In this document: one piece after another, positions 8,842-59,173 of the stretch
Layout: every line of letters starts with the position of its first letter
Numbering within the stretch: the first letter of the stretch is position 1
Assembly: GCA_037349105.1 (NCBI GenBank)
Contig: JAYJMM010000109.1
Coordinates: 838,501-902,500, forward strand
Source of the DNA: Limnomonas spitsbergensis
Taxonomy: Eukaryota > Chlorophyta > Chlorophyceae > Chlamydomonadales
DNA: 64,000 nucleotides
Reading direction: 5' to 3'
Position numbers and translations under genes: made by a program
Notes under the pieces: model-generated
What the model was told of the DNA's origin: nothing
Databases searched by the model: none
Seen by the model: only the letters and a program-made list of their open reading frames with translations

Positions 8842-10383
8842 TTAGGCAATAGGGCTAGGGGGAGAAGGGGGAGAAGGGCTAGGGCTAGGGGGAGAAGGGG
8901 GAGAAGGGCTAGGGGGAGAAGGGCTAGGGGGAGAAGGGCTAGGGGGAGAAGGGCTAGGGGGAGAAGGGCTAGGGCTAGGGGGGGAAGGGCTAGGGGGGGG
9001 AGGGCTAGGGGGGGAAGGAGGTAAAGGAGAAGGAGGGACAGGTGGAGAGAACACAAAGGAAGGAGGATGGGGAGGGGAGGGGGGAGGGGAGGGGGGCAGA
9101 GGAGGGCTTGGAAGGGGTGGGGGTGCTGGAGGGGGAGAGGGGCTAGGGGGCTGTGGAGGAGTAGGGCTTGGGGGTGAAGGTGAGGGTGGGGGAGGACTAG
9201 GGGGAGGAGGGGGAGGGGGGCTAGGTGGTGGAGGGGGAGGAGGGGGGAGAGGCGATGGAGGGAAAGGAAGCCCGGCAGGTTTAGGGGGAGGTGAAGGGCT
9301 GGGGGGTGGCAGGGAAGGGGGGCTGGGGCTGGGGGGAGGGATCACATATCCAGGGGGGAAAGGAGGTGGGGCCGGGAGTGGGGGTAGAGGAGAGGGAGAT
9401 GGTGGCATGGGAGGGGGGGGCGTGGGAGGTGTTGGGGCTGTGCGGGCACCATAGACAGCGAACTTGCGGATGGCCTTGGGGTTGAGGGAGGTGGGGAACC
9501 ACTTCTCTCCAAACCAACTGATGTAGGTGAAGAGCGCGTATGGCAAGCAGATGGAGAATTGGACGCAGGTGTTGGTTTCCCAATACAGGGCAGGGTTGTT
9601 GATTGTGTTCTGGGCATATGGTCCACCAGTCACGCTGTAGATTCCGCCTCCGGACGCGTTTAGTGAGTTGGGGTTACCGGAGAAGTTGAAAGACAGGACG
9701 GAGCTGAAGGTCGCCTTTACGTAGTCAGAACCAGGCGTCTCTGGTAAGGTAGTAGGCCACGCGCTGGCCTCGATCGAACCAATGAACACTGTCTCGAGCG
9801 GATTCGTGAGAGACTTGGGTGTTGGCACGAAAAATACCTGGTGAAGGAAAAGAGAAATAAGACCATGCATGGCATTAAGCACAGTAAAAATACTCCGGCC
9901 CTCAGGTAGGTTCCGTCGCAAGTTTATCAAGAGCCAACGGCATCGTCTGGTTCGGGCAGATCTGGCGGGAGATTTTGGCCTGGCAGGTCCGCCCCCGACT
10001 TCCATATACTGTAAGCATACCTGGGCGATGGCAGCGGCCAAGTCAGCTTGAAACTCCAAAGCTGAGCCACCTGGGTTGGTGCCGTTGGTAATGGCGGAGA
10101 AGCTGGTCCTGATGTACAGGACCCAGCGCTGAGGGAGGCTGAAGTTGAAATGCGGACCGTCCTGGATGATGGTCATGTCGCGGGTCTGGTTGAGGTTGGA
10201 GGTGATCGCCATAGGGGGCGACGGCGGGGCGGGGGAACGCGGGGGGGTGGGAGGCAGGGGAGTTGTTTGGGCGTCTGAAGAGGTGGCGAGAACAACGAGC
10301 ATGACAGCCATGAGGCTGCAACGAAATTGGGAAGTCATGACTGGCGCTGAAGGGCCTCCGATGAGGGTGTAGAGGGGTTGCAA
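8842..10383 (-). CDS. Secreted hydroxyproline-rich (Ser-Pro) glycoprotein
   Basis: There are two exons, 10383-10021 and 9837-8842. The 183-bp intron has donor CAG|GTATGC and acceptor ACCAG|GTATTT; it is itself open, so an unspliced frame is also readable. The start is either 10383 or, more likely, Met16 (10338), which begins a signal peptide (MTSQFRCSLMAVMLVVLATS). A short PPTPPRSP linker comes next, then a globular domain of about 260 residues with several N-glycosylation sequons (NQT, NFS, NGT, NAS), and from about 9435 a roughly 200-residue tail of (SP)n and PPPP runs ending SPIA. This layout is typical of volvocalean wall and extracellular-matrix glycoproteins. The globular part lacks the cysteine pattern I would expect of a pherophorin domain and I do not recognise it. 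Confidence 0.75.
   Translation of the reverse strand: MQPLYTLIGGPSAPVMTSQFRCSLMAVMLVVLATSSDAQTTPLPPTPPRSPAPPSPPMAITSNLNQTRDMTIIQDGPHFNFSLPQRWVLYIRTSFSAITNGTNPGGSALEFQADLAAAIAQVCLQYMEVGGGPARPKSPARSARTRRCRWLLINLRRNLPEGRSIFTVLNAMHGLISLFLHQVFFVPTPKSLTNPLETVFIGSIEASAWPTTLPETPGSDYVKATFSSVLSFNFSGNPNSLNASGGGIYSVTGGPYAQNTINNPALYWETNTCVQFSICLPYALFTYISWFGEKWFPTSLNPKAIRKFAVYGARTAPTPPTPPPPMPPSPSPLPPLPAPPPFPPGYVIPPPSPSPPSLPPPSPSPPPKPAGLPFPPSPLPPPPPPPPSPPPPPPPSPPPPSPSPPSPTPPQPPSPSPPPAPPPLPSPPLPPSPPPSPPHPPSFVFSPPVPPSPLPPSPPSPPPPSPSPPSPSPSPPSPSPPSPSPPSPSPPSPSPPSPPSPSPSPPSPPSPIA
8855..9030 (-). repeat. Minisatellite encoding the Ser-Pro tail
   Basis: Plus-strand units GGGCTAGGGGGAGAA repeat about ten times and end just inside the stop codon. 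On the coding strand they give (Ser-Pro-Pro/Ser-Pro) runs. The length of the protein tail is therefore set by a length-unstable array. Confidence 0.75.
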
Positions 10384-11894: not shown

Positions 11895-13071
11895 ATGTTG
11901 ACACCTCAGACAATGATTGTATTCATGTGCTTGATCTCTATGCAAGCTTCGCTCATGAACTATATCCTGCTGAATATGAACATTGAGGACGTCGATGGCA
12001 TCGACATTGCTGCCATTTGCGCTACATTGCTCACGGGTCGGAGGTTCAAAAGAGTCCTTGGGCTGGTCCAGGCACGTTCGTTCCGGTCTGTCCGAGCTAT
12101 CGGGTCTTGCGGCTTTTATGAGAAGCAATTCTGTGGCGATTGGGTTCAGCTGGAGGCCAAGGGTGGTACCCACCTTGAATACGTGGAAAGCCGCATGAGG
12201 CAAGCCTTCAGAATGGACAAGCAGACATTTCGCTGGTTGTACATGTAAGTGGGCAGCCAAGTCCTCTGTCATTTGTCTTCCCACTTGTCTTCTCACTTGT
12301 CTCACTGGATTGCCTTTTCATGCCCAGAAACTACGGCTGCCGCTTAGGGATAGAAGAAACTGCCCTGCGAGATACAATCCCAGCAGAGAAGCGTATATGC
12401 GTGTTCCTTGATTGGCTTTCTAGTGGTCAGCCCTACCAGGTTTTAAGCAGGATGTATGATATCAGCAAGGTTGCAGTGGTGTCAATCATTCACGATGCTC
12501 TTAATCTTTTTTCGGTGGAATTTGTTTACGCCATGATTAAATTCCCAACAGGCACCGAGGTAGTTCAAGTCATGCATGATTTTGAGATGTTGTGTTCCCT
12601 GCCCATGTGTCTGGGGGCGATAGATGGGACATTTATGCGTATTACCAAGCCTGCTAGGTTTGGTGGTGTTTTTTTCTGCTACAAGAAGTATTGTGTTGTC
12701 ATCATATTGGCTTTTGTAAATGCACATGGGCATTTTACGTATGTCAGATCTGGAGAACCAGGTAGTGATGGTGATGCCGCCACATGGAACCGGTGTCCGA
12801 TGTCCCTGAATTTAGCACAGCTTTGCACATTGCCTCATGGTGTCCCGCCCAAACGTATTTCGGGTGTTGATATTCATCCCTACATTGTTGCTGATGGGGC
12901 CTTCAGCTTGGGAGAGAACATCATGAAGTGTTTTGAGACTCCGAACCCAACTGCTGAGCAGTTCAATTTCAACTATGCCTTGATCAGGACAAGGAGGGTG
13001 GTTGAGTGTGCTTTTGGCCGTTTGAAGGGCCGGTTTAGAATTCTGGATAACAGTAGGCTCAAGGATGACAG
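11895..13071 (+). CDS. HARBI1-like DDE transposase (spliced)
   Basis: Exon 1 is 11895-12244 and exon 2 is 12328 to about 13071. The 83-bp intron is AT|GTAAGT...CCCAG|A and keeps the frame. The protein has an N-terminal helical region, a DNA-binding-like segment (QAFRMDKQTFRWLY, then AEKRICVFLDWLSSG and YDISKVAVVSII), and the DDE nuclease core: first Asp in LGAIDGTFMRI (codon near 12621), a GSDGDAATWN segment, second Asp in VADGAF (12892-12894), and the Glu in RRVVECAFGRLKGRFRIL (13003-13005). All three catalytic residues are present. The usual C-terminal segment after the Glu helix is missing: a possible donor at CAG|GTTTGC (13072) or the following minisatellite replaces it. Translation straight through gives an Ala-His-Leu repeat tail that is unlikely to be native. 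Confidence 0.85.
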
Positions 13072-13109
13072 GTTTGCGGCTTCCTCCTTCTCAGCGCCAC
13101 CACTTGCAG

Positions 13110-13430
13110 GGCTGGGCTCACTGGCCCATGCCCATGCCCTGGCCCATGCCCTGGCTCTGGCCCATGCCCTGGCCCAGGCCCATGCCCTGGCCCAGGCCCA
13201 TGCCCTGGCTCTGGCCCATGCTCTGTCTCTGGACCATGCTCTGCCCCTGGCCCATGCTCTGGCCCTGGCCCATGCTCTGGCCCTGGCCCATGCTCTGGCC
13301 CATGCTCTGCCCATGGCCCATGCCCTGGCCTTGGCCCATGCTCTGCCCCTAGCCCATGCCCTGGCCCATGCCCATGCTCTGGCCCATGCCCATACCCATG
13401 GCCATGCCATGGCCCTGGCCCTGGCCCATC
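13110..13430. repeat. GGCCCATGCCCT minisatellite inside the Harbinger element
   Basis: Units of about 12-18 bp built from GGCCCATGCCCTGGCC repeat between the two convergent ORFs. They extend the transposase frame as Ala-Leu-Ala-His and the opposite frame as Met-Gly-Gln-Gly. A similar CATGCC word-repeat occurs at 18.5-19.0 kb and in PUS1-like intron 1. Confidence 0.75.
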
Positions 13431-13439
13431 AGGGCGCAA

Positions 13440-14523
13440 GCAAGCAGCTCAAACAACTTATGCTGACCATTCATCATCATCGTCAGGACATGACGCTGAT
13501 CCTTCTTATCCTCTCGCCGTTGCTCAGCCTTCAGTACCCTGTCCTCCTTCATCATGGCATCTACAGCCCGAACCTGGGAAGTGCCAGTTGGGGGGCGCGT
13601 ACCAGAGTGCACTTGCTCTTTCTTCACCTTGGGGGGAGACGAGACCTCCACATCAGAGTCCACCTCAACAACAGCGGACTCGTTCATGGACGAGCGCTTG
13701 CCTTGCAAGGGGGGCAGCATAGTGTCCTCAATGTCGTGGAGGCCGGGGCAAAAGGTCTTGTGCTCCATGAAGAGGTCCACCCACAGTCCGAAGCACATCC
13801 ACTCTGCTTTGACAGCATCCATGTCCAGCCGCTCCACCGCACCGACGCCGGATCCGGTGGCAGGAGGCTTCAGGTTCTTCGTGATGATCTTTTCGCCAGC
13901 TTCTTCCTGTTGTCAAACAGGTTTTTGACAACATCAGGGTTGTAGTAGTCTTCGCTGGGCAGAGTGATGCCCATGTCCAGGGAGAACGTAGTCAGCTCTG
14001 CTGAGATGGACCTGAACTGCATTGCAGAGCTGCATGCCAGCTGCTGAGGTGGCTGACTGCTGCTTGACAGCCTGAGCGCTGACTAAAAGCTGGCTGACTG
14101 CGCACCTTGCTGCGGCGCACCTTCATCATCCCATCAGTGCCGCTGACATGCCTGTGAAAGCACCTCAGAGCGAGCTCCTCTCCCTCTCTATACCAGTGGA
14201 CCTTTGAACCAGAAGACACCATCTTCTCGGAGATTTGAGCGGCCGTGAGGCCGCCTGCTTGATAGTCCACCACACTATCCTTCGCCTTCCGCCCTTTCGA
14301 CGGCTTGATCTTGGGCTGCGCTTTGCCCTTGCTCTTGTGAAGAGCCATGAGATCTTCAGCGGCCTCCTCTGCTTCAGTCTCCTCCTCCTCGGGCGGAGCC
14401 TCGTAGTCGGAGCTGGGAGGAGATGCAGGAGGAGGTGACACATCGTTGCGGTACCGGGGTGGGGTTGCTGCCTTCCGCTTCGTCCTGCGAGTGTCCGCCT
14501 CGACACCGGAATCATTAAATACA
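13440..14523 (-). CDS. Second Harbinger ORF (accessory DNA-binding-type protein), probably disrupted
   Basis: The minus strand holds three protein-like blocks in order. 14523-14033 has an acidic SSDYEAPPEEEETEAEE stretch, a basic KIKPSKGRKAK stretch and VHWYREGEELALRCFHRH. About 14018-13890 follows a CAG acceptor (FRSISAELTTFSLDMGIT, then YYNPDVVKNLF). 13860-13440 has GAVERLDMDAVKAEWM and FGLWVDLFMEHKT, then a charged C-terminus. The last two blocks lie in different frames around 13890-13910, meaning either a short intron (acceptor at CAACAG) or a one-base frameshift. Its position opposite the transposase matches the Myb-like accessory gene of PIF/Harbinger elements, but I cannot confirm a Myb/SANT fold. 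No ATG was found upstream, so a 5' exon may be missing. Confidence 0.5.
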
Positions 14524-43329: not shown

Positions 43330-43833
43330 CTGCGGCCAGGAATTAGTTGTGTGTCGAGGGGTGAGGGGGCAGGTTGACTTCAATTGGGTAGCAGGGTTTA
43401 GGCGGGTCGGGTTCAGTTGTGTGTCAGGGGAGCGGGGCAGGTGAGATTCAGATCAGTGTCAGGGGGGCGGGCAGGTGGTAGGGTCGCGGGTCTGAATGCA
43501 GGACTGGATGCTATTTTATTACAAAAGACCCACTCCAGGTTGTCTAATGATTACTCCTCAGTCTCCACACACCTGGGGCTATCCCCCCCCCCAAGGGTGT
43601 CTCATCACTCCATGGAACATATCAGTTGTCCTGTAGTAGGCGAGTGGTAGCCATTTCCTATCAGTACTGCGGGTTGAAAGTAAGTCGGATTAGCGATTTC
43701 AGCCCAGCCACTCGCCAAAATACAAAATAAGCCGGCTCGCTGAAGATGCCGGCTGTGCCCACTTTCACACTTGTTCACACCCTTGGCTCCTAGAAAAGGA
43801 AGTGCCGATTTCGACATCAGAAACACTGGAGGG

Positions 43834-45350
43834 TCATACAGTATGCCACTTAAGGGCAGGAGGGTCATAGGGTATGCCACTAAAGGGCAGGAGGGTCATA
43901 GGGTATGCCACTAAAGGGCAGGAGGGTCATAGGGTATGCCACTTAAGGGCAGGAGGGTCATAGGGTATGCCACTTAAGGGCAGGAGGGTCATAGGGTATG
44001 CCACTAAAGGGCAGGAGGGTCATAGGGTATGCCACTTAAGGGCAGGAGGGTCATAGGGTATGCCACTTAAGGGCAGGAGGGTCATAGGGTATGCCACTAA
44101 AGGGCAGGAGGGTCATAGGGTATGCCACTAAAGGGCAGGAGGGTCATAGGATATGCCACTAAAGGGCAGGAGGGTCATAGGGTATGCCACTTAAGGGCAG
44201 GAGGGTCATAGGGTATGCCACTAAAGGGCAGGAGGTTCATAGGGTATGCCACTAAAGGGCAGGAGGGTCATAGGGTATGCCACTAAAGGGCAGGAGGGTC
44301 ATAGGGTATGCCACTAAAGGGCAGGAGGGTCATAGGGTATGCCACTAAAGGGCAGGAGGGTCATAGGGTATGCCACTAAAGGGCAGGAGGGTCATAGGGT
44401 ATGCCACTAAAGGGCAGGAGGGTCATAGGGTATGCCACTTAAGGGCAGGAGGGTCATACAGTATGCCACTAAAGGGCAGGAGGGTCATAGGGTATGCCAC
44501 TAAAGGGCAGGAGGGTCATAGGGTATGCCACTAAAGGGCAGGAGGGTCATAGGGTATGCCACTTAAGGGCAGGAGGGTCATAGGGTATGCCACTTAAGGG
44601 CAGGAGGGTCATAGGGTATGCCACTTAAGGGCAGGAGGGTCATAGGGTATGCCACTAAAGGGCAGGAGGGTCATAGGGTATGCCACTAAAGGGCAGGAGG
44701 GTCATAGGGTATGCCACTAAAGGGCAGGAGGGTCATAGGGTATGCCACTTAAGGGCAGGAGGGTCATAGGGTATGCCACTAAAGGGCAGGAGGTTCATAG
44801 GGTATGCCACTAAAGGGCAGGAGGGTCATAGGGTATGCCACTAAAGGGCAGGAGGGTCATAGGGTATGCCACTAAAGGGCAGGAGGGTCATAGGGTATGC
44901 CACTAAAGGGCAGGAGGGTCATAGGGTATGCCACTAAAGGGCAGGAGGGTCATAGGGTATGCCACTAAAGGGCAGGAGGGTCATAGGGTATGCCACTAAA
45001 GGGCAGGAGGGTCATAGGGTATGCCACTAAAGGGCAGGAGGGTCATAGGGTATGCCACTTAAGGGCAGGAGGGTCATAGGGTATGCCACTAAAGGGCAGG
45101 AGGGTCATAGGGTATGCCACTAAAGGGCAGGAGGGTCATAGGGTATGCCACTAAAGGGCAGGAGGGTCATAGGGTATGCCACTAAAGGGCAGGAGGGTCA
45201 TAGGGTATGCCACTAAAGGGCAGGAGGGTCATAGGGTATGCCACTAAAGGGCAGGAGGGTCATAGGGTATGCCACTTAAGGGCAGGAGGGTCATAGGGTA
45301 TGCCACTAAAGGGCAGGAGGGTCATAGGGTATGCCACTAAAGGGCAGGAA
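43834..45350. repeat. 31-bp minisatellite, about 49 copies
   Basis: The unit includes AGGGCAGGAGGGTCATAGGG then TATGCCACT(T/A)A. Units differ mainly at one T/A site (CTTAAG or CTAAAG). Rare variants are shared at exact multiples of the unit: GGTTCAT at 44234 and 44792 (558 bp, 18 units) and CATACAG at 43835 and 44455 (620 bp, 20 units). The array may lie in an upstream intron of the minus-strand gene. Confidence 0.9.
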
Positions 45351-47949: not shown

Positions 47950-50900
47950 ATGGCGACCGATGCCACAGCTACTGTCGTCGCCGCCCCCCCCGCTCCCGAC
48001 TTCAAGAGCCTATCAAAGAAAACAGTAGCTCTCCATGTCGGATACGTCGGCACGGGGTACAAAGGTTCGATTGTTTTTCTATCTGGGGGGGTCTGGAAAT
48101 CCCCCATTCAGTAGTGGGCGCGTCCCATCTCGATGCCATGCACAGCCATCGCATGCCTGTGTACTCTGCCTTACGTCATGCAAAGATGAACAGTCACATA
48201 TTCCTCGTGACATGCCCCATGCCAGTTCCTATGCAGGGCCCCAAATCCATTCCCCATGGCAGGCCCCATATCAGACCCCATGCCAGTTCCCATGCCAGAC
48301 CCCACGCCTGGCAACATGAGCGGCCCATGCTTGAACCCATGACATCACGTATGCCTGGCCCCATACCAGGTCATGCATCAGAACCTATAGCAGGCCCCAG
48401 GTCAGGAAGTGTGAGCAGTGCACTTATACGCCCTCCACAATTTCTGCCTCACTCTACCTTGAACCCTAAACCTCGCTCCCTCGCCCTCGCTCAGGCTCGG
48501 CAGTGAATCGGACGCTCGGAGAGGCTGCCACAGTGGAACAGGTGTGGGCAATCTTATCTAGGGTTCGGGATTAGGGTTGACCAAGTGTGAACGATTGTCT
48601 GTAGGGTTAAGCAAATGCAGGCAATCGTCTTCATGTTTCGTGTCTTGGGTTGAACATGTGTGATGTTTGGTGGGTGTATGGGGGGAGGTAGGTGGGGGAG
48701 GGAAGAGCATATTACGCGTGTTGTCGGCTTGCTGCACTGCATTGTGTTGCTCTGCTGAACAAGTTGTACGTCATGGTAGTACTGCTAGATAGACATTGTA
48801 CTGCACCGCTATCAACATGTCCACACACACACGCTTCCACACTTCCTTCGCCTGTATCAGGTTCTGGAGGAAGCCATCCTAAAAGCCGGGTTGATGAACG
48901 AGTTGAATTTCGGGTCGTTTAGCAAGATCAAGTGGACACGTGCATCGCGCACAGACAAGGGGGTGCACTCACTGGGGACAGTGAGTGGACACATCAGGGC
49001 TTGATTCACTGATCTTCTATCTTCTGCCCTTATGCCGAGGGAGATGGTGAGTGGACGCATCAGGGCTTGATTCACCGATCTTCTATCTTCTGCCCTTATG
49101 CCGAGGGAGATGGTGAGTGGACGCATCAGGGCTTGATTCACCGATCTTCTATCTTCTGCTCTTGTGCCGAGGGAGATGGTGAGTGGACGCATCAGGGCTT
49201 GATTCACCGATCTTCTATCTTCTGCTCTTATGCCGAGGCATATGGTGAGTGGACGCATCAGGGCTTGATTCACCGATCTTCTATCTTTTGCTCTTGTGCC
49301 GAGGGAGATGGTGAATGGACGCATCAGGGCTAGATTCACCGATCTTCTATTTCGCTCTTGTGCCGAGGGAGATGGTGAATGGACGCATTAGGGCTTGATT
49401 CACCGATCTTATATCTTCTGCTCTTATGCCGAGGGAGATGGTGAGTGGACGCATCAGGGCTTGATTCACTTGTTTTCTATCTTCTGCTCTTATGCCGAGG
49501 GAGATGGTGAATGGACGCATTAGGGCTTGATTCACCGATCTTCTATCTTTTGCTCTTGTGCCGAGGGAGATGGTGAATGGACGCATTAGGGCTTGATTCA
49601 CCGATCTTCTATCTTCTGCTCTTATGCCGAGGCATATGGTGAGTGGACGCATCAGGGCTTGATTCACCGATCTTCTATCTTTTGCTCTTGTGCCGAGGGA
49701 GATGGTGAATGGACGCATCAGGGCTAGATTCACCGATCTTCTATCTTTTGCTCTTGTGCCGAGGGAGATGGTGAATGGACGCATTAGGGCTTGATTCACC
49801 GATCTTATATCTTCTGCTCTTATGCCGAGGGAGATGGTGAGTGGACGCATCAGGGCTTGATTCACTTGTTTTCTATCTTCTGCTCTTATGCCGAGGGAGA
49901 TGGTGAATGGACGCATTAGGGCTTGATTCACCGATCTTCTATCTTTTGCTCTTGTGCCGAGGGAGATGGTGAGTGGACGCATCAGGGCTTGATTCACTTG
50001 TTTTCTATCTTCTGCTCTTGTGCCGAGGGAGATGGTGAATGGACGCATTAGGGCTTGATTCACCGATCTTCTATCTTTTGCTCTTGTGCCGAGGGAGATG
50101 GTGAATGGACGCATCAGGGCTAGATTCACCGATCTTCTATCTTTTGCTCTTGTGCCGAGGGAGATGGTGAATGGACGCATTAGGGCTTGATTCACCGATC
50201 TTCTATCTTTTGCTCTTGTGCCGAGGGAGATGGTGAATGGACGCATTAGGGCTTGATTCACCGATCTTCTATCTTTTGCTCTTGTGCCGAGGGAGATGGT
50301 GAATGGACGCATTAGGGCTTGATTCACCGATCTTCTATCTTTTGCTCTTGTGCCGAGGGAGATGGTGAATGGACGCATTAGGGCTTGATTCACCGATCTT
50401 CTATCTTTTGCTCTTGTGCCGAGGGAGATGGTGAATGGACGCATTAGGGCTTGATTCACCGATCTTCTATCTTTTGCTCTTGTGCCGAGGGAGATGGTGA
50501 ATGGACGCATTAGGGCTTGATTCACCGATCTTCTATCTTTTGCTCTTGTGCCGAGGGAGATGGTGAATGGACGCATCAGGGCTTGATTCACCGATCTTCT
50601 ATCTTTTGCTCTTGTGCCGAGGGAGATGGTGAATGGACGCATTAGGGCTTGATTCACCGATCTTCTATCTTTTGCTCTTGTGCCGAGGGAGATGGTGAAT
50701 GGACGCATCAGGGCTTGATTCTCCGATCTTCTATCTTATTCTGAGGGCACATTTGTGCAACCTTTACATACCGATATGGTTTAATAAACTTAGAAATAAG
50801 ATGCATGGTTGTTTATACCGGTAGAGTTATGCTAACGATATCATTGGTGACTGTCCTGTATGTGGGTGTGGATCAGGGAGGCCTTCCATGGCTTCATCAG

Positions 50901-53900
50901 CAGCTTTTAATCAGCCCGGCTACTGCCGTCCCGCCCCTCTCCGCAACCACCTGACAGGTTTCACTCCATAGCATGAAGGGGGCTGCAGCAATCTGTAGCA
51001 GCCAAGCTGCGGGGCTCTACGGCCTCGATATCTTGGAGAAGGGGACCCCGCTTCGCTCCGCATCCCCACTTAGCCCCTCACCCCCTGCACCCCTCACGCC
51101 CCGCACCCCGCACCCCCCGCTCCCCTCCCACCCCACACTCCTCACACCCCACACCCCTCGCACCCCACACCCCACACCCCTGCCTTTCCTGTTCCTGCTC
51201 GCCTTTTCTCAGCTGCTGACGAGCGCCCTATGCGCACCCGGACTGTTTTTGTGTGTTAGTGTCTCAGGTTTTCTAGGGTTGGGCGGCTGGCCTCACACCT
51301 TGTAAAGCCAAAAAAAAACTCACCCCCCCCTCACACTCTCTGATGCTTGCACCATCTCCCTCGGCACTTCTACTAAACCCATGCCCATTGTCGTTCCTCC
51401 CTCCCTACCCGTTGCAGGCGACGTCCATGCGCCTCCGAGTGCACTATCATTCCACACTTAGTCCTGAACCCCAGACACTCATCTCTAAAACCTGAACACC
51501 ACGCCCAGCCTGTGTGGGTAGGCGTCTCATGTTTCCCTTCACCCCCTGGTTTCAGGTCATGTCTATGCGCCTCCGTGTGCACTATTGTTCCACACTTAGT
51601 CCTGAAGCCCAGACACTCATCTCTTAACCCTGAACACCACGCCCAGCCTGTGTGGGTAGGCGTCTCATGTTTCCCTTCACCCCCTTGTTTCAGGTCATGT
51701 CCATGCGCCTCTATGTGCACTATTGTTCCACACTTAGTCCTGAACCCCAGACACTCATCTCTTAACCCTGAACACAACGCTCAGCTTGTGTGGGTACGTG
51801 TTGAATTGTTCCCTCCCCTCCTCCTTTCAGGTCATGTCCATGAGCTCAGCCTGCATGGCTACATGTGAAATGGTTCCCTCCCCTCCCTTCCTTGTTCAGG
51901 TCATGTCCATGAGCTCAGCTTGCATGGCTACGTGTTCAATGGTTCCCTCCTCTCCCCTCCTTGTTCAGGTCATGTCCATGAGCTCAGCTTGGATGGCTAC
52001 GTGTTCAATGGTTCCCTCCTCTCCCCTCCTTGTTCAGGTCATGTCCATGAGCTCAGCTTGGATGGCTACGTGTTCAATGGTTCCCTCCTCTCCCCTCCTT
52101 GTTCAGGTCATGTCCATGAGCTCAGCTTGGATGGCTACGTGTTCAATGGTTCCCTCCTCTCCCCTCCTTGTTCAGGTCATGTCCATGAGCTCAGCTTGGA
52201 TGGCTACGTGTTCAATGGTTCCCTCCTCTCCCCTCCTTGTTCAGGTCATGTCCATGAGCTCAGCTTGGATGGCTACGTGTTCAATGGTTCCCTCCTCTCC
52301 CCTCCTTGTTCAGGTCATGTCCATGAGCTCAGCTTGCATGGCTACGTGTTCAATTGTTCCCTCCTCTCCCCTCCTTGTTCAGGTCATGTCCATGAGCTCA
52401 GCTTGGATGGCTACGTGTTCAATGGTTCCCTCCTCTCCCCTCCTTGTTCAGGTCATGTCCATGAGCTCAGCTTGGATGGCTACGTGTTCAATGGTTCCCT
52501 CCTCTCCCCTCCTTGTTCAGGTCATGTCCATGAGCTCAGCTTGGATGGCTACGTGTTCAATGGTTTTCTCCCCTCCTCCTTTCAGGTCATGTCCATGCGC
52601 CTCCTGGTGCATGATGATCGTTACAGGGCCAGCGGTGACCCCGAAGGCCTCACCCATGCGGACCTCATCAATGAACACCTGCCGCCAGCCATCCGCGTCT
52701 TCGCGGTGCAAAAGACAAACAAGGTACACTAAGGATTGAAGGTTGAGGCAAACTGGCGCAATAATGCTCGAGAGCACCTGTTCCTCCTCATGGTGATAAG
52801 AGGTTCTGGGGTGAAGGGTTAAGGGCTGGGGACACTCGGGGGAACATCCAGCTTCATCACTCTTAGGGCTTATGGTATCAACACATGGGAAGATTGCTGG
52901 TTGGTGAGCATGCAGATACAGGGTAACCCCGGTCGAGCCATGAGAAACACACACACACACATGTCTGCTGCCTCTGCTGACCTAAAGCTGGAACTAGCTA
53001 GTCCGAAACTGCATTCTGCGGCGCTAAGGATTCGGAATCCTCACACCTTGTCCACACTTGTCCCATCCACAGAAATTTAATGCGCGGCACCAGGCAATCA
53101 GCCGTGTCTACGAGTACTACCTGCCAGTCTCACTGTTAGGTAAGCAGTTAATAGTGTGATGTTAGTTGTTACTCATGTTATGTCAGCAGAGATTCGTTTC
53201 ATGTAAACACACACTGCTGTGGGTTAAGCAGTTACTGGTGTGACAAAAGCAGTTCCTGATGTGATGTAAGCAGTTACTGGTGTGATTGTAGCAGTCAGGG
53301 GTGTGATGGTAGCAGTTACTGGTGTGATGGTAGCAATTAGTGGTGTGATGTAAGCAGTTGCTGGTGTGGTGGGAGCAATTAGGAGTGTGATATAAGCAGT
53401 TGCTGGCACCATGTCAGCAGAGGGTATCATTGTGTGGGGTTCTGTTTGCATCCAGGTGCCCGCCCAATCTCCCGTGCAGTGTCTGTGCTTCCTGATCATC
53501 TTCCTTGCACATATAAACCATTTCCTTGTGCCTACATGATTGTCTTCATTGCCCCCCTTAAGAATCTGTTACTTTCTGTTACTTTCTTTCCTTGACCTGT
53601 CCCTGGTGTCTGAGTCGCTTGTCCCCTCCTCTTTGTGCCGGCTGTCGCAGAGCTGCAAATGGACGGCAGCGAGTTTGATAAAGAGCGCATTGCTTTGTTC
53701 CGCAAGACACTTAATACATACCTGGGTTCACACCCCTTCCACAACTTCACCAAGATGAGGTGATCAGGGGGGGGCGGGGAGGGGAGGCAGGGAGAAGGGG
53801 AAGAGGGAGGGGGGGAGGAGGGAGTTCCAAAGTTTGAAAGCCCAGCCCAGCCCAGCCCAGCCCAGTCCAGCCATTATTGTAAGGAGCGAGGATGGCGGGG

Positions 53901-56900
53901 GCAGGGAGGATTTTGACAACTGTACTGAAAGTTTCCAAACATCCAGTCCAGGCCAGCCTAGCCCAGTCATGAATGATTTTCGAGTTCCCCTGTCAAGTCT
54001 TCCAGCTGAACCCTGAGCTCTATGCCCTAATGCGCTGTGGCTGTGTCCTGCTTTTCCAGGCAGCACGATGGCGGGCGCAACCTGACCAAGGGGTACAACA
54101 AGGTGGGTCAGAGGCAGTGTTTCTTCTTTCAGCTGCCAGTCCACCTTCAATAGGCCGCCCCGCGGCCGCCATAGGCCCGATTTGGACCAACCCTTGTCTG
54201 GCCTACGACTGGTGGGTCAGAGGCAGTGTTTCTTCTTTCAGCTGCCAGTCCACCTTAAGTAGGCCGCCCCACGGCCACCATAGGCCCGATTCGGACCAAC
54301 CCTTGGCCTATGACTGATGGCTAAAGCAGCATGGCTGGCCACAAACGGGGCCTCCAGACAGAGACCGGGGGGTAGCTGAGCTGTAGCTAAGTCAGAAAAG
54401 AGAGACACTGGGCAGAGGAGTACTCTACCTTAAAGGGGTACGGTCTGTGTATCCTGACCGAAGTGTACATCAAGAGTGGTTAGGGTCGGTCGATGCAAAG
54501 TGACCAAGGGGTAGAAGAACGTGGGTCTTAGGGTTACGCAGCACGACCCAGGGCTCGAGCAGTGTGGCTGAAAGCTGAATGCTGAAAGCCAGGTACCCTG
54601 CTAGGTGCTTTGATCACGCATCACAAATATGTTGCCAACACAGCTTTTGAGCCATGTTTTCCCATGCAACATTGCCCCATGCAACACCCCCCCATGCAAT
54701 ATTCCCCCATGCATCATTCCCTCATGCAACATTGTCCCATGCAACATCGTCCCATGCAGCATTGCCCCATGCAACATTGCCTCATGCAACATCCCCCTGC
54801 AACATCGTCCCATGCAACAGTGTCCCATGCAACATTTCACCATGCAACATTCCCCCATGCAATATTCCCCCATGCAAACTTCTCCCCTGCCCACTTCCAG
54901 GCCCGCATGGACGCAGCAGCTGATGCGCGTTCACGTGGTGAGGACCCCCGCGTCCCGGCGGGCGAGGTCAAGGCGATACTTGCTGAGCGAAAGCAAGCAA
55001 GCAAGCTGCTGCTGGAGCAGGAGCTGCGGGGGGAGGCAGGGGGTGTTGCTGATGTTGCTGCTGTTGCAGCCGGAAGTGTCACGGCTGTTGCAGCCGAAAG
55101 TGTCACGGCTGTTGCAGCCGAAATAGCCACAGCTGTTGCAGCCGAAAGTGTCACGGCTGTTGCAGCCGAAAGTGTTGCGGCCATCACCGAGCCAACTGCC
55201 GGCACGGAGCCGTCGGCAGTTACGGAATTGATGACAGGTGCTGAACCAATGGCAGTCGAGGAGGAGCTGCTGGCAGTGACTGAGCCGTCGGCTGTTGCGG
55301 CGCAAGAAGGCGGCGGCGAAGAGACGTGTGTGGGAGCAGGAGCGGGAGAGACGGGGCAGCCATTGCAACAGCAGCAGCCGGGCCCACCGCCTGCAGATGT
55401 GCATCGGGGCGCCAAGCGGGGACGGGGTGAGGCGGAGGAGGAGGAGGAGGAGGACGGCGATGAGGACGGCGATGAGGAAGGGGAGCTGGACGATGAGGCG
55501 GACGAAGCAGGGGCAGGTCCGGGGCCGACGGACGGCGCAGGCGGGCCTGCCAATCCAACCTCAGAGGCAAAGCTTGAGTGGACTCGGGTGAGGTGTGGGG
55601 AGGTGTGAGAACTCAACAGCATAATGTGTGGATATGTGTGGATGTTAACGCATGTGACCAACCTCCAACCTTCCACCCTTACGAGCTGGGCACCCACTAC
55701 GCAGTGAGTTTGGAAAGCCCCAAAGCACCCACATGAAACATCCACCAGAGAAAAAATGATCGTGGCAGAAAAGCTGTGTACTGTGTTTTGTTTGGCTTTT
55801 CCTGGTCGTGATGACCCCTGTCAAAAACGAAAATGCTGCATTGCTTTTTGTTTACTTCCTATCCACAAAGCTGGATGGCTGCTGCTCCACCTCCAACCTC
55901 CAACCTCCAACCTCCCAACCCCCAACCTTAAACCTTAAACCTCCCAGTCTCCAACCTCCCAACCTCCCGAGCTTCAACCTCCTAGCCTCCAACCTCCAAC
56001 TTGGTGCAGGATTGCGACCGCTCCAATTCCAACCTCCAACCTCCCAACCTCCCAACCTCCCAACCTCGAACCTCCCAACCTCCAAATTCGCAACCTCCAA
56101 CCTCCCAACCTCCCAACCTCCAAATTCGCAACCTCCCAACCTCCAACCTCCAACCTCCCAGCCTCCAACCTTCAACCTCCCAGTCTCCAACCTTCAACCT
56201 CCCAGCCTCCAACCTCCAACCTCTCACATGTGCAGGATGGCGGCCAATCCAATTCCAACCGGGTGACTCAGACCTTCTATCGCAACATCTACAGCTTTGA
56301 GGCTGCGGATCCGGCGCCGCTGGTGGCGGGCGGGATCTCCTGCATGCGGCTGACAGTGCATGGACAGAGTTTCATGCTGCATCACATCCGGCATATGATA
56401 GGCACAGCGGTGAGGGGGGAGGGGGGCCAGGGGGCATACTTGGAAAAGTGGGGTTGGAAGTTTGCATCCCTTCAAATATAAAATTGAAAGCAGATACGAT
56501 GATATGACGCTTGATAGGCACAGGGGTGAGGGGAGACAGGAGGGGGTGATTGCTTTAGGAGCCAGGGTTATGCTTGGGGTAGTAGGTTGGAAGTTTGAAA
56601 CCCATTCGCCAAAGACGACACATGATCGGCACAGCAGTGAGGGGGATGAGGGTGGGTGGGGTGGGGGGATGGATTGCTTTAGGGGGATGGGTTAATGCTT
56701 GGAATAGTGGGGTTGGAAGTTTTTGACCCTTTTGCCACCTCTGACACATGAAAGGCACTGGGTTGGGGGATGGACTGCTTCACGGGCCAGGGTTCGTGCT
56801 GGGAAGAGGAGGTTGAAACCCTATTTTGGCACATGATGAGGTGATGGCGAGGGGGGGTGGGGGGCTTTATGGGCTTATGGGTTTATGCTTGGCATAGTGG

Positions 56901-59173
56901 GGCTGGAAGTTTGAAACCCTTTTCCACATCCGGCACATGATAGGTAAAGCGATGTGTGTGTGTTTGGAGCGAGGGTTAGGGTTTGAGTGGAGGGACTAAA
57001 CTCCTTTCCACACGTCTCCCTCATGAGAAACACTGTCAAGCCAGAGGGGGGGTGGATTATTTGCTCGTACCGGTTTGCGGGCACCTGTCCCATGCATCTA
57101 GTGTGATGATGCGCTGGACTGTGAACACTTCACATTTGGGGGGGAATATCAGTCGGGGTCGGATGAGGGATGGAGGGATTGCCACCTTGGAACTAAGCCG
57201 GCGTATGCCTCCCTGAAGGAGTCCAGGCCCCCTCTCACATCAGTCTGCCCCCTTTCCCGCCACACCCTCCTGTCTTGCTGTTGCCATGCAGATCGCTGTG
57301 ACAGTGGGGGTGTTGCCTCAAGAGCTGCTGGAGGCCTCCCTGAAGGCCCCCTCTCGCATCAGCCTGCCACGTGCCCCGCCACACACCCTGCTGCTCAGCG
57401 ACTGCCGCTTCAGCCGCTTCCCGACAGCCCCAGGTGAGACCTTGGTCAAGCTTAGGGTTGAGCCCCAGAGGTCAAAGGTGAGACCCTAAGCCCTAGGGGA
57501 ATACTCATTGTCATTCAAAAGTCACGACCACATCTGAACCCTGAACCTCCACACTTTATTCACCCTAACCTTCCCTATCCCTATCCATCCAACCTGCCCA
57601 TCCATCCCCATCCCTCATCATTTCCAGCCCCCTTCCATTTGCAGCCCTGTCCCTTCCTCCCCTCTGTCCCTCTCTCCCCCCTGGTCAGGCACGGACAGCG
57701 GGCTGCATAAGATCAGCGGCGAGCGCTTGTCGTTACACGAGGGGGGCATTGCCCGCAAGGAGGCGTTCAGGCGCGACGCGCTGCAGCCCGCGCTGCAGGA
57801 GCTGGTAGAGCTCCCAGAGTGGCAGCAATGGCTTGCCAGGTGGGGCCAGGGGGGGCCATCAGGGGGGTCAGGGGGGGTCAGCAGGGGGATCGGGTGGGGG
57901 CCAGCAGGGGGGGCCAGGGGGAGCCAGCAGGGGGGGCCAGCAGGGGGGCCAGCAGGGGGACCAGCAGGGGGGCCAGGGGGGGGCAGGGGGGCCAGCAGGG
58001 GTTCAGGGGGGCCAGCAGGGGATTCAGGGGGGGCCGGCAGGGGGTTAAGGGGGGGCCAGAGGGGGCAGCAGGGGGGTGGGGGCAGCAGGGTGGCCAGGGG
58101 GGGGCCAGGGGGGTCAGGGGGGGCCAGGGGGGGCCAGCAGGCAGGCCCAGGGGGGGGCCAGGGGGGGGGCCAGGTGGGGCCGGCAGGGGGCTAGGGGGGC
58201 CAGCAGGGGGGCCAGGGGGGGGGGCAGGGGGGGGGCAGGGGGGGCAGGGCTGGGCAAAAGCAAGGGTGGGGGTTGCACCGGAACCCCAAAGATCTTTGGC
58301 TTCCTTGTGGGGCCATTCAATGTGTCTGCTGGCCGCTCCACCTGAACCCTAGTTTTATTTTGTCCTACAGGTCCTAGCATAAGTCTTGACCCTGACCCTG
58401 GGGCTATGCCATCCACTGCCAAACCTTCACTAGAGCGTTATTTGATTGCAGCTTGACCCTGAACCTTGATCCCTACGCCCTGAACCTTGATCCCTACGCC
58501 CTGAACCTTGATCCCTACGCCCTGAACCTTGATCTTATGCCTTGAGCTTGGTGTGTTCGGCCCGGAGCCAAATGTCCTGTGCTTCAAGCCTTTGGACTGA
58601 GCCTCCCCCTTGCCTTGTGTGCAGCTTGAGACAGTGTGCAGGTTTTGCCCCTGTGCGATTGGAATCCTTTCTCTCAGAGTTCAAGGAGTGGACTGCCTCC
58701 GTCAAGGAGAAAAAGGTGGGTGGGGGCATGCATCTGAAAGGGGCTGGGGCATGCCATCAGGATGCAATGGAACAGGGGCATGCCACCAGAATGGGCGGAA
58801 TTATGCCATAAGGATGAAATGGGATCTTGGGCTGCCATAAGGATGCAAAATAATGGGGGCATGCCCTTAGAACCTTATCCTGCATTGCCTGAGCTTTATG
58901 TCCTTGCCCGGTGATCTCTGGTGGTGGCAGGCAAAGCGGGCTGAGGAAATCGCTGCCAACGGGGGGACGGTACCTCCCTTCTTGGAAGGTGACGATGCGG
59001 ACGAGGGCGGGCAGCGTCGCGCGGTGGAAGATGAGGACGAGGGCGGACGCAGTGGGGGCGGCCGGGGGCGAGGCGGCGGAGGCCGCGGCGGGTGGAGGGG
59101 CCGAGGCGGCGGCGGCGGCGGTGGGGGCAGGGGCAGGGGCGGGCGTGAACAATGGTGGAAGAAGCGAAAATAA
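47950..59173 (+). CDS. PUS1: tRNA pseudouridine synthase, TruA/PUS1 family (13 exons)
   Basis: Converts specific tRNA uridines to pseudouridine. The exons are 47950-48064, 48495-48541, 48861-48980, 52586-52723, 53073-53139, 53651-53759, 54060-54102, 54901-55587, 56236-56409, 57292-57433, 57689-57839, 58625-58715 and 58931-59173. All joins keep phase and sum to 2127 nt (708 residues). Motifs in order: HVGYVGTGYKG (nucleotide-fold start), RASRTDKGVHS with the catalytic Asp (codon 48954-48956), the active-site Tyr region RVYEYYLP, YLGSHPFHNFT, and GQSFMLHHIRHMIG. Exon 8 inserts about 230 mostly low-complexity residues (AVAAES repeats, then acidic EEEEEEDGDEDG) between the catalytic halves. The C-terminus is an RGG/Gly-Arg box ending WWKKRK, suggesting RNA binding and nuclear location. 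The length exceeds the usual 400-550 because of these two parts. Introns are filled with junction-derived repeats. Confidence 0.92.
48981..50735 (+). repeat. 66-bp minisatellite built on the 5' splice site of PUS1-like intron 3
   Basis: About 26 copies. The first copy begins at the real donor (GGGACA|GTGAGTGGACACATCAGGG); later copies carry GAGATG|GTGA(G/A)TGGACGCAT. GTGAGT-type and GTGAAT-type units are mixed. The unit is 66 bp with no minus-strand stop, giving an artificial 453-codon ORF. Confidence 0.92.
51410..52585 (+). repeat. Acceptor-derived minisatellites (137-bp, then 69-bp units) of PUS1-like intron 3
   Basis: Three units of about 137 bp start TTTCAG|GTCATGTC(C/T)ATGCGCC, copying the acceptor and about 25 bp of exon 4. 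Then about eleven 69-bp units carry GTTCAG|GTCATGTCCATG followed by AGCTCAGCTTG. The last one is the true acceptor at 52585/52586. Confidence 0.92.
53140..53415 (+). repeat. About 21-bp repeat built on the donor of PUS1-like intron 5
   Basis: The intron begins GTAAGCAGTTAATAGTGTGA. GTAAGCAGTTACTGGTGTGA and variants (GTAGCAGT...) recur about nine times to 53415. Confidence 0.8.
54103..54531 (+). repeat. Donor-containing duplications in PUS1-like intron 7
   Basis: 54103-54195 (starting at the donor GTGGGTCAGAGGCAGTGTTT) is repeated at about 54210-54302. A separate piece at 54498-54531 copies the end of exon 7 plus donor (TGACCAAGGGGTA-AA-AA-GTGGGTC). Confidence 0.8.
54655..54890 (+). repeat. 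15-bp repeat CATGCAACATTGCCC
   Basis: About 15 copies lie directly upstream of the exon 8 acceptor at 54900. Confidence 0.85.
55075..55180 (+). repeat. In-exon repeat encoding AVAAES units
   Basis: A 24-bp unit (GTTGCAGCCGAAAGTGTCAC) repeats about five times inside exon 8 of the PUS1-like gene and keeps the frame, expanding the inserted linker. Confidence 0.75.
55885..56225 (+). repeat. CCTCCAAC repeat in PUS1-like intron 8, seeded from exon 9
   Basis: The array of AACCTCCAACCTCCC words contains, at 56001-56035, a decoy acceptor plus exon start (TGCAG|GATTGCGACCGCTCC, then AATTCCAACC). It mimics the real one at 56231-56260 (TGCAG|GATGGCGGCCAATCC, AATTCCAACC). Confidence 0.85.
56385..56965 (+). 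repeat. About 110-bp repeats copying the exon 9/intron 9 junction
   Basis: The real junction ATATGATAGGCACAGCG|GTGAGG (56409/56410) is echoed near 56514, 56620, 56743, 56829 and 56931, e.g. ACATGATCGGCACAGCA|GTGAGG. Each echo is followed by TTGCTTTAGG... and TAGTGGGGTTGGAAGTTT. Confidence 0.82.
57206..57272 (+). repeat. Partial copy of exon 10 within intron 9
   Basis: TGCCTCCCTGAAGG...CCCCCTCTCACATCAGTCTG...CCCGCCACACCCTCCTG mirrors exon 10 at 57332-57394, about 125 bp downstream. Confidence 0.75.
57840..58255 (+). repeat. G-rich GGCCAGCAGGGG array from the donor of PUS1-like intron 11
   Basis: Exon 11 ends TTGCCAG|GTGGGGCCAGGGGG. Words GGCCAGCAGGGGG and GCCAGGTGGGGCC repeat for about 400 bp. 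The plus strand is G-rich throughout, with many runs of four or more G. Confidence 0.8.
58444..58545 (+). repeat. 21-bp repeat and decoy acceptor in PUS1-like intron 11
   Basis: A decoy TTGCAG|CTTGACC at 58451/58452 resembles the real GTGCAG|CTTGAGA at 58624/58625. It is followed by four copies of CCTGAACCTTGATCCCTACG. Confidence 0.75.

Follow-up and report, generated by a model that had tools for sequence, protein, structure and literature searches.

How could a splicing machinery pick one donor and one acceptor in an intron that carries dozens of near-identical copies of both, and how did such an intron come about? This question is raised by intron 3 of a PUS1-type tRNA pseudouridine synthase gene of the Arctic snow alga Limnomonas spitsbergensis (Chlorophyta), located on the forward strand of a 64,000-nucleotide stretch of contig JAYJMM010000109.1 (positions 838,501 to 902,500; GC content 0.5405), which was analysed as a whole and is called the window in the following. 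The intron extends over 3605 bp (48981-52585) between the end of exon 3 at 48980 and the start of exon 4 at 52586, while the genome report gives a mean intron length of 788 bp for this species (PMC11228838). It begins with an array of donor copies and ends with arrays of acceptor copies. We conclude, with a probability of about 0.72, that tandem duplications of its own junctions made the intron grow from both ends towards the middle, with random duplications being tolerated and the splice sites being chosen by position.

The donor array (48981..50737) comprises 26.7 units of 66 bp. An earlier model-made reading of the window, called the original prediction here, had claimed about 26 donor-carrying units of this length, and we indeed counted 27 copies of the motif GTGA[AG]TGGAC, consisting of the unit of the true site, 25 further full units and one degenerate copy at the end. 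The copies are spaced by 66 bp, once by 64 bp, with the true donor in first position directly behind exon 3 (48861-48980; junction ACA/GTGAGT). Tandem Repeats Finder likewise placed the start of the array at 48981, the first base of the intron, and reported 26.7 copies with 94% matches. The donor hexamer is GTGAGT at the true site and 8 decoys, and GTGAAT at the other 18 decoys. Altogether, the 27 units fall into 14 sequence types. Because units 5, 7, 8 and 9 are identical to units 11, 13, 14 and 15, their order suggests that the array underwent a six-unit duplication.

After the middle part of the intron (50738..51417), two acceptor arrays follow. The first (51418..51830) contains three units of 137-138 bp, each with a CAG followed by a match to exon 4 up to its base 26, and the second (51831..52585) contains eleven decoys at 69-bp spacing, followed by the true acceptor between 52585 and 52586. 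This is in line with the three units of about 137 bp and about eleven of 69 bp, all with exon 4 bases, that had been predicted. Together, the arrays hold 15 copies of the motif CAGG[TC][CG]A[TC]GTC[CT]ATG, namely three decoys at about 138 bp, eleven at 69 bp and the true site as the last one, with spacings of 138, 138 and 137 bp, then ten of 69 bp and a final one of 65 bp. The start of exon 4 (52586-52723, read in the spliced frame) is matched over 15-28 nt in all 14 decoy units (scores 25-37). Because exon 4 bases are present inside them, the acceptor units represent the duplicated boundary and are self-derived. The 69-bp unit was probably derived from the 138-bp unit by an internal deletion, because it aligns to the second half of the latter with a score of 60.

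We scored junction copies in the introns of the PUS1-type gene against a null of 200 dinucleotide-preserving shuffles. The copies in intron 3 exceeded all 200 shuffles for the donor junction (70 vs. a null maximum of 29) and for the acceptor junction (80 vs. 31), which confirms the claimed relation of the units to the terminal splice-site sequences, and the copies of the exon 4 start reached a score of 37 vs. null maxima of 28, 32 and 30 in three comparisons. The 66-bp donor units do not resemble the 69- or 138-bp acceptor units (scores of 12, 12, 13 and 18 at a 95% point of the shuffles of 20-21), which argues for a separate origin of the two arrays. The proposal of an independent amplification at both junctions therefore holds as far as the separate origin is concerned, but the junctions do not emerge as special starting points, as intron interiors are copied at similar or higher rates in the PUS1-type gene and PRP8 (see below).

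The units are also of local origin. In searches of the 260,226,709-bp assembly (124 contigs) with an index that skips common words, a double 66-bp unit yielded 12 pieces, all in intron 3 or its end, and a double 69-bp unit yielded 6 pieces, all at this locus. The 15-mer GCCGAGGGAGATGGT was found at 24 forward places and 1 reverse place in 260 Mb, all of them in intron 3, while its reversed control was found at none. Because the 66-bp unit, the 15-mer and the 69-bp unit occur at this locus only, the arrays are, judged by these searches, no dispersed or mobile element as far as the 66- and 69-bp units are concerned. Introners are a known way of filling algal genes with similar introns, which would favour the insertion of an introner-like mobile element or a dispersed repeat into intron 3. 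They share with intron 3 the repeated intron sequence in an alga, but introners are dispersed, whereas the intron 3 units that were searched belong to one locus. Similar copies at many unrelated sites, the mark of introners, were not found for the two units covered by the searches (66 and 69 bp, but not the one of 138 bp), and we consider this explanation hardly probable at all. The 15-mer forms the core of an inverted 18-bp copy of the donor-unit junction, GTGCCGAGGGAGATGGTG, located on the reverse strand at 51350..51367, shortly before the acceptor array. This copy could be a scar of templated repair, or else it could base-pair with decoy donors at the RNA level (computed duplex of -39.2 kcal/mol). 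RNA docking of this kind is possible, but was dropped as a mask for the decoys because one copy cannot cover 26 of them.

The sites assumed to be used were assigned by reading frame and homology. The gene was modelled from 47950 to 57432 with ten exons, and more may follow: exon 1 (47950-48064), exon 2 (48495-48541), exons 3 and 4 as given above, exon 5 (53073-53139), exon 6 (53651-53759), exon 7 (54060-54102), exon 8 (54901-55587), exon 9 (56236-56409) and exon 10 (57292-57432). Splicing them results in a single open frame of 547 amino acids with a match to Pfam family PF01416 (PseudoU_synth_1, E 3.3e-15). When 253 residues were used as the query, the closest homologue was one of Chlamydomonas sp. 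UWO 241, covering 89% of the query with 67% identity. In the four homologues inspected by eye (P0001, P0002, P0003 and P0005; 4 of 38 hits), the joint of exons 3 and 4 is contiguous without insertion. That the two exons are not joined, either because they belong to two genes or because the gene is dead, is therefore very improbable, as all ten exons share one open frame and these homologues are contiguous across the joint. As the original prediction had it, the true sites are the outermost ones of their arrays, the donor being the first and the acceptor the last copy: among the 405 possible pairs of 27 donors and 15 acceptors, the frame stays open through exon 4 in the outermost pair only (0 of the 404 others).

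The strength of the sites was scored using a donor/acceptor matrix built from the 32 introns of the unrelated PRP8 gene (see below). The true donor reached 3.8 bits, less than the lowest PRP8 donor (4.9), and all 26 decoys scored higher, with 5.2 bits for 18 and 8.6 bits for 8 of them. Computed pairing with U1 was stronger for the eight GTGAGT decoys (-10.0 kcal/mol) than for the true donor (-6.5 kcal/mol), and weaker for the 18 GTGAAT decoys (-5.4 kcal/mol). Because the true donor scores below its decoys on the PRP8 matrix, local strength cannot account for the choice of the donor. The innermost donor copy (50695) and the innermost acceptor copy (51417) are only about 0.7 kb apart, and a machinery joining the nearest pair across the intron should therefore choose wrongly. 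Within the donor array, no AG reaches the lowest PRP8 acceptor score, and in the acceptor arrays three GTs reach the lowest donor score. Nested splicing or unit-by-unit removal within one array was rejected as a candidate, looking unlikely by these site scores, which in effect count one unit repeatedly.

The arrangement is no isolated case and recurs within the same gene and elsewhere, as the search for further self-derived arrays suggested at that time has shown. Junction copies were found at five of the nine introns of the PUS1-type gene (3, 5, 7, 8 and 9), affecting the donor junction in 4, the acceptor junction in 2, the exon end in 2 and the exon start in 2 of the nine. In intron 5 (53140..53650), the donor start recurs in a 21/42-bp minisatellite (donor junction 34, null maxima 26 and 29), and in intron 7 (54103..54900), a 109-bp duplication begins within one base of the donor and a copy of the exon 7 end is present at 54495-54519. 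Intron 8 contains a copy of its own acceptor junction together with 25 nt of exon 9 (55976..56034; score 68, null maximum 31); the exon part alone exceeds the null with a 50-nt query (30 vs. maxima of 27 and 24), but not with an 80-nt query (30 vs. 32). Intron 9 carries diverged copies of the exon 9 end with the donor (56616..56951; copies at 56616-56655 and 56925-56951) and, in its 3' part (57207..57272), a copy of the exon 10 interior (57334-57390) with 76% identity over 66 columns (score 55, null maximum 31). Its acceptor comes after this copy (57207-57291), as if duplicated exon sequence had become intronic and a new acceptor had taken over.

For comparison, we used the PRP8 gene (18 kb, contig C29), which was picked regardless of repeats and contains 32 introns of 157-568 bp; its identity is based on a stretch of 988 of the 2184 residues spliced in silico, which aligns to solved PRP8 chains. 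Among its 32 introns, copies of the donor junction were found in 2, of the acceptor junction in 1, of the exon end in 2 and of the exon start in 1, from 128 tests with 300 shuffles each, for which about 0.4 chance hits are expected. Introns 21 and 23 are clear cases, and introns 4, 13 and 29 barely exceed the null maximum. In a 200-kb stretch of C4, 22 distinct predicted junction pairs were tested, 18 from a tandemly repeated gene and 4 from another, and 7 showed copies; some of these stem from a single junction present in two copies of a gene, and the intron predictions there are probably wrong in some cases. The repeated multi-exon gene is arranged in tandem blocks (L025-L035, C4:1000001-1110000), and two tested copies of one of its introns share a duplicated acceptor, the 82-bp array of which recurs along the stretch. 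Naming it an amidase by eye was dropped because its first 301 residues gave no Pfam match.

Further cases were obtained via the sequence GTGAGTGGAC, which was counted at 1041 places. Among the 100 places listed, there are at least eight clusters with spacings of about 170 bp or less, and the four of these that were read (L045, L046, L047 and L048) all exceed their shuffles and each follow an open frame. Exon-end copies are present at L045 and L046, and donor-junction copies at L047 and L048 (39 vs. 31 for L048); the exon end by itself stays below the null at L047 (23 vs. 25). L045 contains nine copies of 33 nt of the exon end and three copies of the start of the next exon, and L046 contains seven copies of the exon end, the best of which spans 64 nt, and one copy of the next exon's start. 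On these predicted exons, L045 and L046 are further paired introns with copies at both ends. The proteins spliced from the two loci gave no Pfam match, and their exons therefore rest on frame and splice signals. The preceding intron at L046 (1-556) also holds four copies of the exon's own start. Eight singletons of GTGAGTGGAC (L001-L008) showed no downstream copies (0 of 8), which is a weak control because several of them are unlike splice donors. Counting donors by pattern throughout the genome did not discriminate, with the reversed control being commoner (5143 vs. 4054), and was discarded.

These observations can be combined to the following proposed course, in which we infer the tolerance of the copies, the route of amplification and the positional choice of sites. 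Duplications would strike introns anywhere, with no need for a trigger at the junctions. Those spanning a junction would persist with the outermost copy still splicing, because splicing at the outermost copy leaves the mRNA unchanged, and the duplicated unit would then be amplified by unequal exchange or slippage. Under exon definition, the two ends of each exon would be paired first. This would give preference to the donor adjoining exon 3 and to the acceptor adjoining exon 4, and with sites picked by position, decoys could accumulate. Nothing in this analysis shows an intron gain.

One may alternatively assume that the junctions themselves trigger the duplications, being preferentially broken or copied due to R-loops, a paused polymerase or lariat-templated repair. 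This would fit to the start of the donor array at the first base of intron 3, to the start of the 109-bp duplication in intron 7, which lies no more than one base from the donor, and to the inverted 18-bp piece just ahead of the acceptor array, which could be a remnant of templated end-joining. Moreover, a higher density of tandem repeats close to intron-exon junctions has been reported, above all in Chlamydomonas reinhardtii and Volvox carteri (PMC3887541). However, other arrays begin well inside the exon, with 33 nt (perhaps 78 in a gapped alignment) at L045 and 64 nt at L046, and 50-mers from junction windows showed copies in 6 of 18 cases in the PUS1-type gene and in 3 of 64 in PRP8, compared to 11 of 27 and 6 of 90 from intron interiors. 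In this small sample, copying is no more frequent at junctions than in interiors, and we regard a junction trigger as unlikely.

Still less probable is a function of the arrays, in which the decoys either titrate U1 or U2 or allow a regulated alternative splicing that lowers the output of the PUS1-type gene. Eight decoys indeed pair better with U1 than the true donor, and mis-splicing would switch the gene off, as none of the 404 mis-pairings preserves the frame. On the other hand, the 66- and 69-bp units are locus-specific, other loci show different sequences and periods (44 bp at L047, 106 bp at L045 and 117-131 bp at L046), and normal splicing has been reported beside the comparable boundary duplications of amphioxus (PMC3087553, PMC3902484). 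An assembly artefact with collapsed or inflated repeat copies appears very improbable as well. Long tandem arrays assemble poorly and the copy number may be off, but the 27 donor units represent 14 different sequence types, similar structures exist at other loci, and the published assembly is described as based on PacBio long reads with Illumina polishing, with a read L50 length of 32.9 kb that exceeds the 3.6-kb intron (PMC11228838).

Several points weigh against inward growth by tolerated duplication with positional site choice. The donor units of intron 3 have the 5' end of the intron in common with the true donor, but the end of exon 3 was not detected in them (anchored p = 0.44; local score 18, null maximum 31). 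This requires the assumption that the breakpoint lay at the junction or that the exon part decayed later. The true acceptor reaches 18.1 bits and is the joint best, tied with one of its 14 decoys while the other 13 score lower, so local strength could account for the choice of the acceptor. The use of the outermost pair is itself deduced from frame and homology. A gene finder retrained on PRP8 and PUS1 took an inner donor in intron 3. A Volvox study considers intron definition the probable mode in Volvox and Chlamydomonas, given that their introns are short (PMC4378016). On the other side stands a cassette-exon fraction of 22% given for C. reinhardtii, which is close to the value for multicellular plants (PMC2397502) and would allow for exon definition. 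The comparison of junctions and interiors covers two genes, PUS1 and PRP8, and the reported junction excess of repeats (PMC3887541) may either count against random duplication or reflect other repeats. The retrained gene finder was discarded as a tool: it recovered 32 of 32 PRP8 introns, which are its own training set, but of genes with at least 450 nt it called only one within the window and two within the C4 stretch, and its PUS1 gene began inside the donor array without exons 1-3. A self-trained version (window plus the 200-kb C4 stretch) drifted into repeats and was rejected as well.

The closest known systems are the "mirages" of amphioxus, duplicated intron/exon boundaries described in globin, Adh, TnC and PGBD5 genes, which sit at 5' or 3' boundaries and for which normal splicing was reported or suggested (PMC3087553, PMC3902484). 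As far as described there, mirages and intron 3 share tandem units that duplicate a boundary with its splice site, a minisatellite-like turnover and a most diverged end unit. The accounts of mirages describe no intron with arrays at both ends and only few units (e.g., 6 and 3 in two BflGb6 haplotypes), whereas intron 3 combines 27 donor and 15 acceptor copies in one intron of a green alga. Tandem units with the splice site of the adjacent boundary are thus present on both sides, and exon bases are included in the units on the acceptor side, but not on the donor side; donor-side units with exon bases occur at L045 and L046 and in introns 7 and 9 of the PUS1-type gene. We therefore file intron 3 as a putative mirage, with the acceptor side fitting the definition and the donor side lacking the exon part. 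Among the matches listed from the openly licensed literature (subscription papers being outside the scope), there was no report of boundary arrays from green algae, nor of an intron with arrays at either end simultaneously. The novelty claimed for the locus accordingly narrows to the paired form and the green-algal lineage, which look new, while boundary minisatellites themselves were already known. The C. reinhardtii and V. carteri survey concerns related green algae with repeats denser towards the intron ends, but it counts repeats, and its accessible text does not describe units with a splice site and exon bases (PMC3887541). Tandem duplication of AG/GT proto-splice sites has also been proposed as a source of new introns (by Rogers and in later work, cited in PMC3087553). 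These models have in common with intron 3 a tandem duplication carrying splice signals; there, a new intron arises, whereas here an existing intron lengthens without any sign of gain.

The window as a whole is rich in tandem arrays: those with a period of at least 10 make up 23% of it, compared to 8.8% of the 200-kb C4 stretch, and a 31-bp unit is repeated 49 times with 98% matches at 43828-45349. An open frame at 12320-13942 on the forward strand codes for a DDE_Tnp_4 transposase domain (E 2e-20) and contains a minisatellite of GGCCCATGCCCTGGCCCA, and another one on the reverse strand (8845-10383) codes for 513 amino acids, includes a long tail rich in proline and serine and gave no Pfam match.

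The choice that the spliceosome makes among near-identical sites is commonly investigated using designed minigenes. Intron 3 represents a natural test of this choice, with 27 donors, 15 acceptors and a single workable pair. It also offers a simple, testable route to the lengthening of algal introns. Full-length transcripts and an annotation exist for L. spitsbergensis (PMC11228838), and if transcripts show the outermost pair only, models of intron definition that join the shortest pair would fail for these introns, contrary to what has been suggested for Volvox and Chlamydomonas. If sites are indeed set by position, the paired arrays would provide a natural experiment in which intron definition is excluded for the introns concerned. 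We only tentatively extend this to the whole genome, and rather doubt that the introns of this alga generally grow inwards from both junctions, with the outermost donor and acceptor being taken despite dozens of equal or stronger copies. If this were true, the duplication of junctions would be linked, as a mutational process, to the long introns of green algae.

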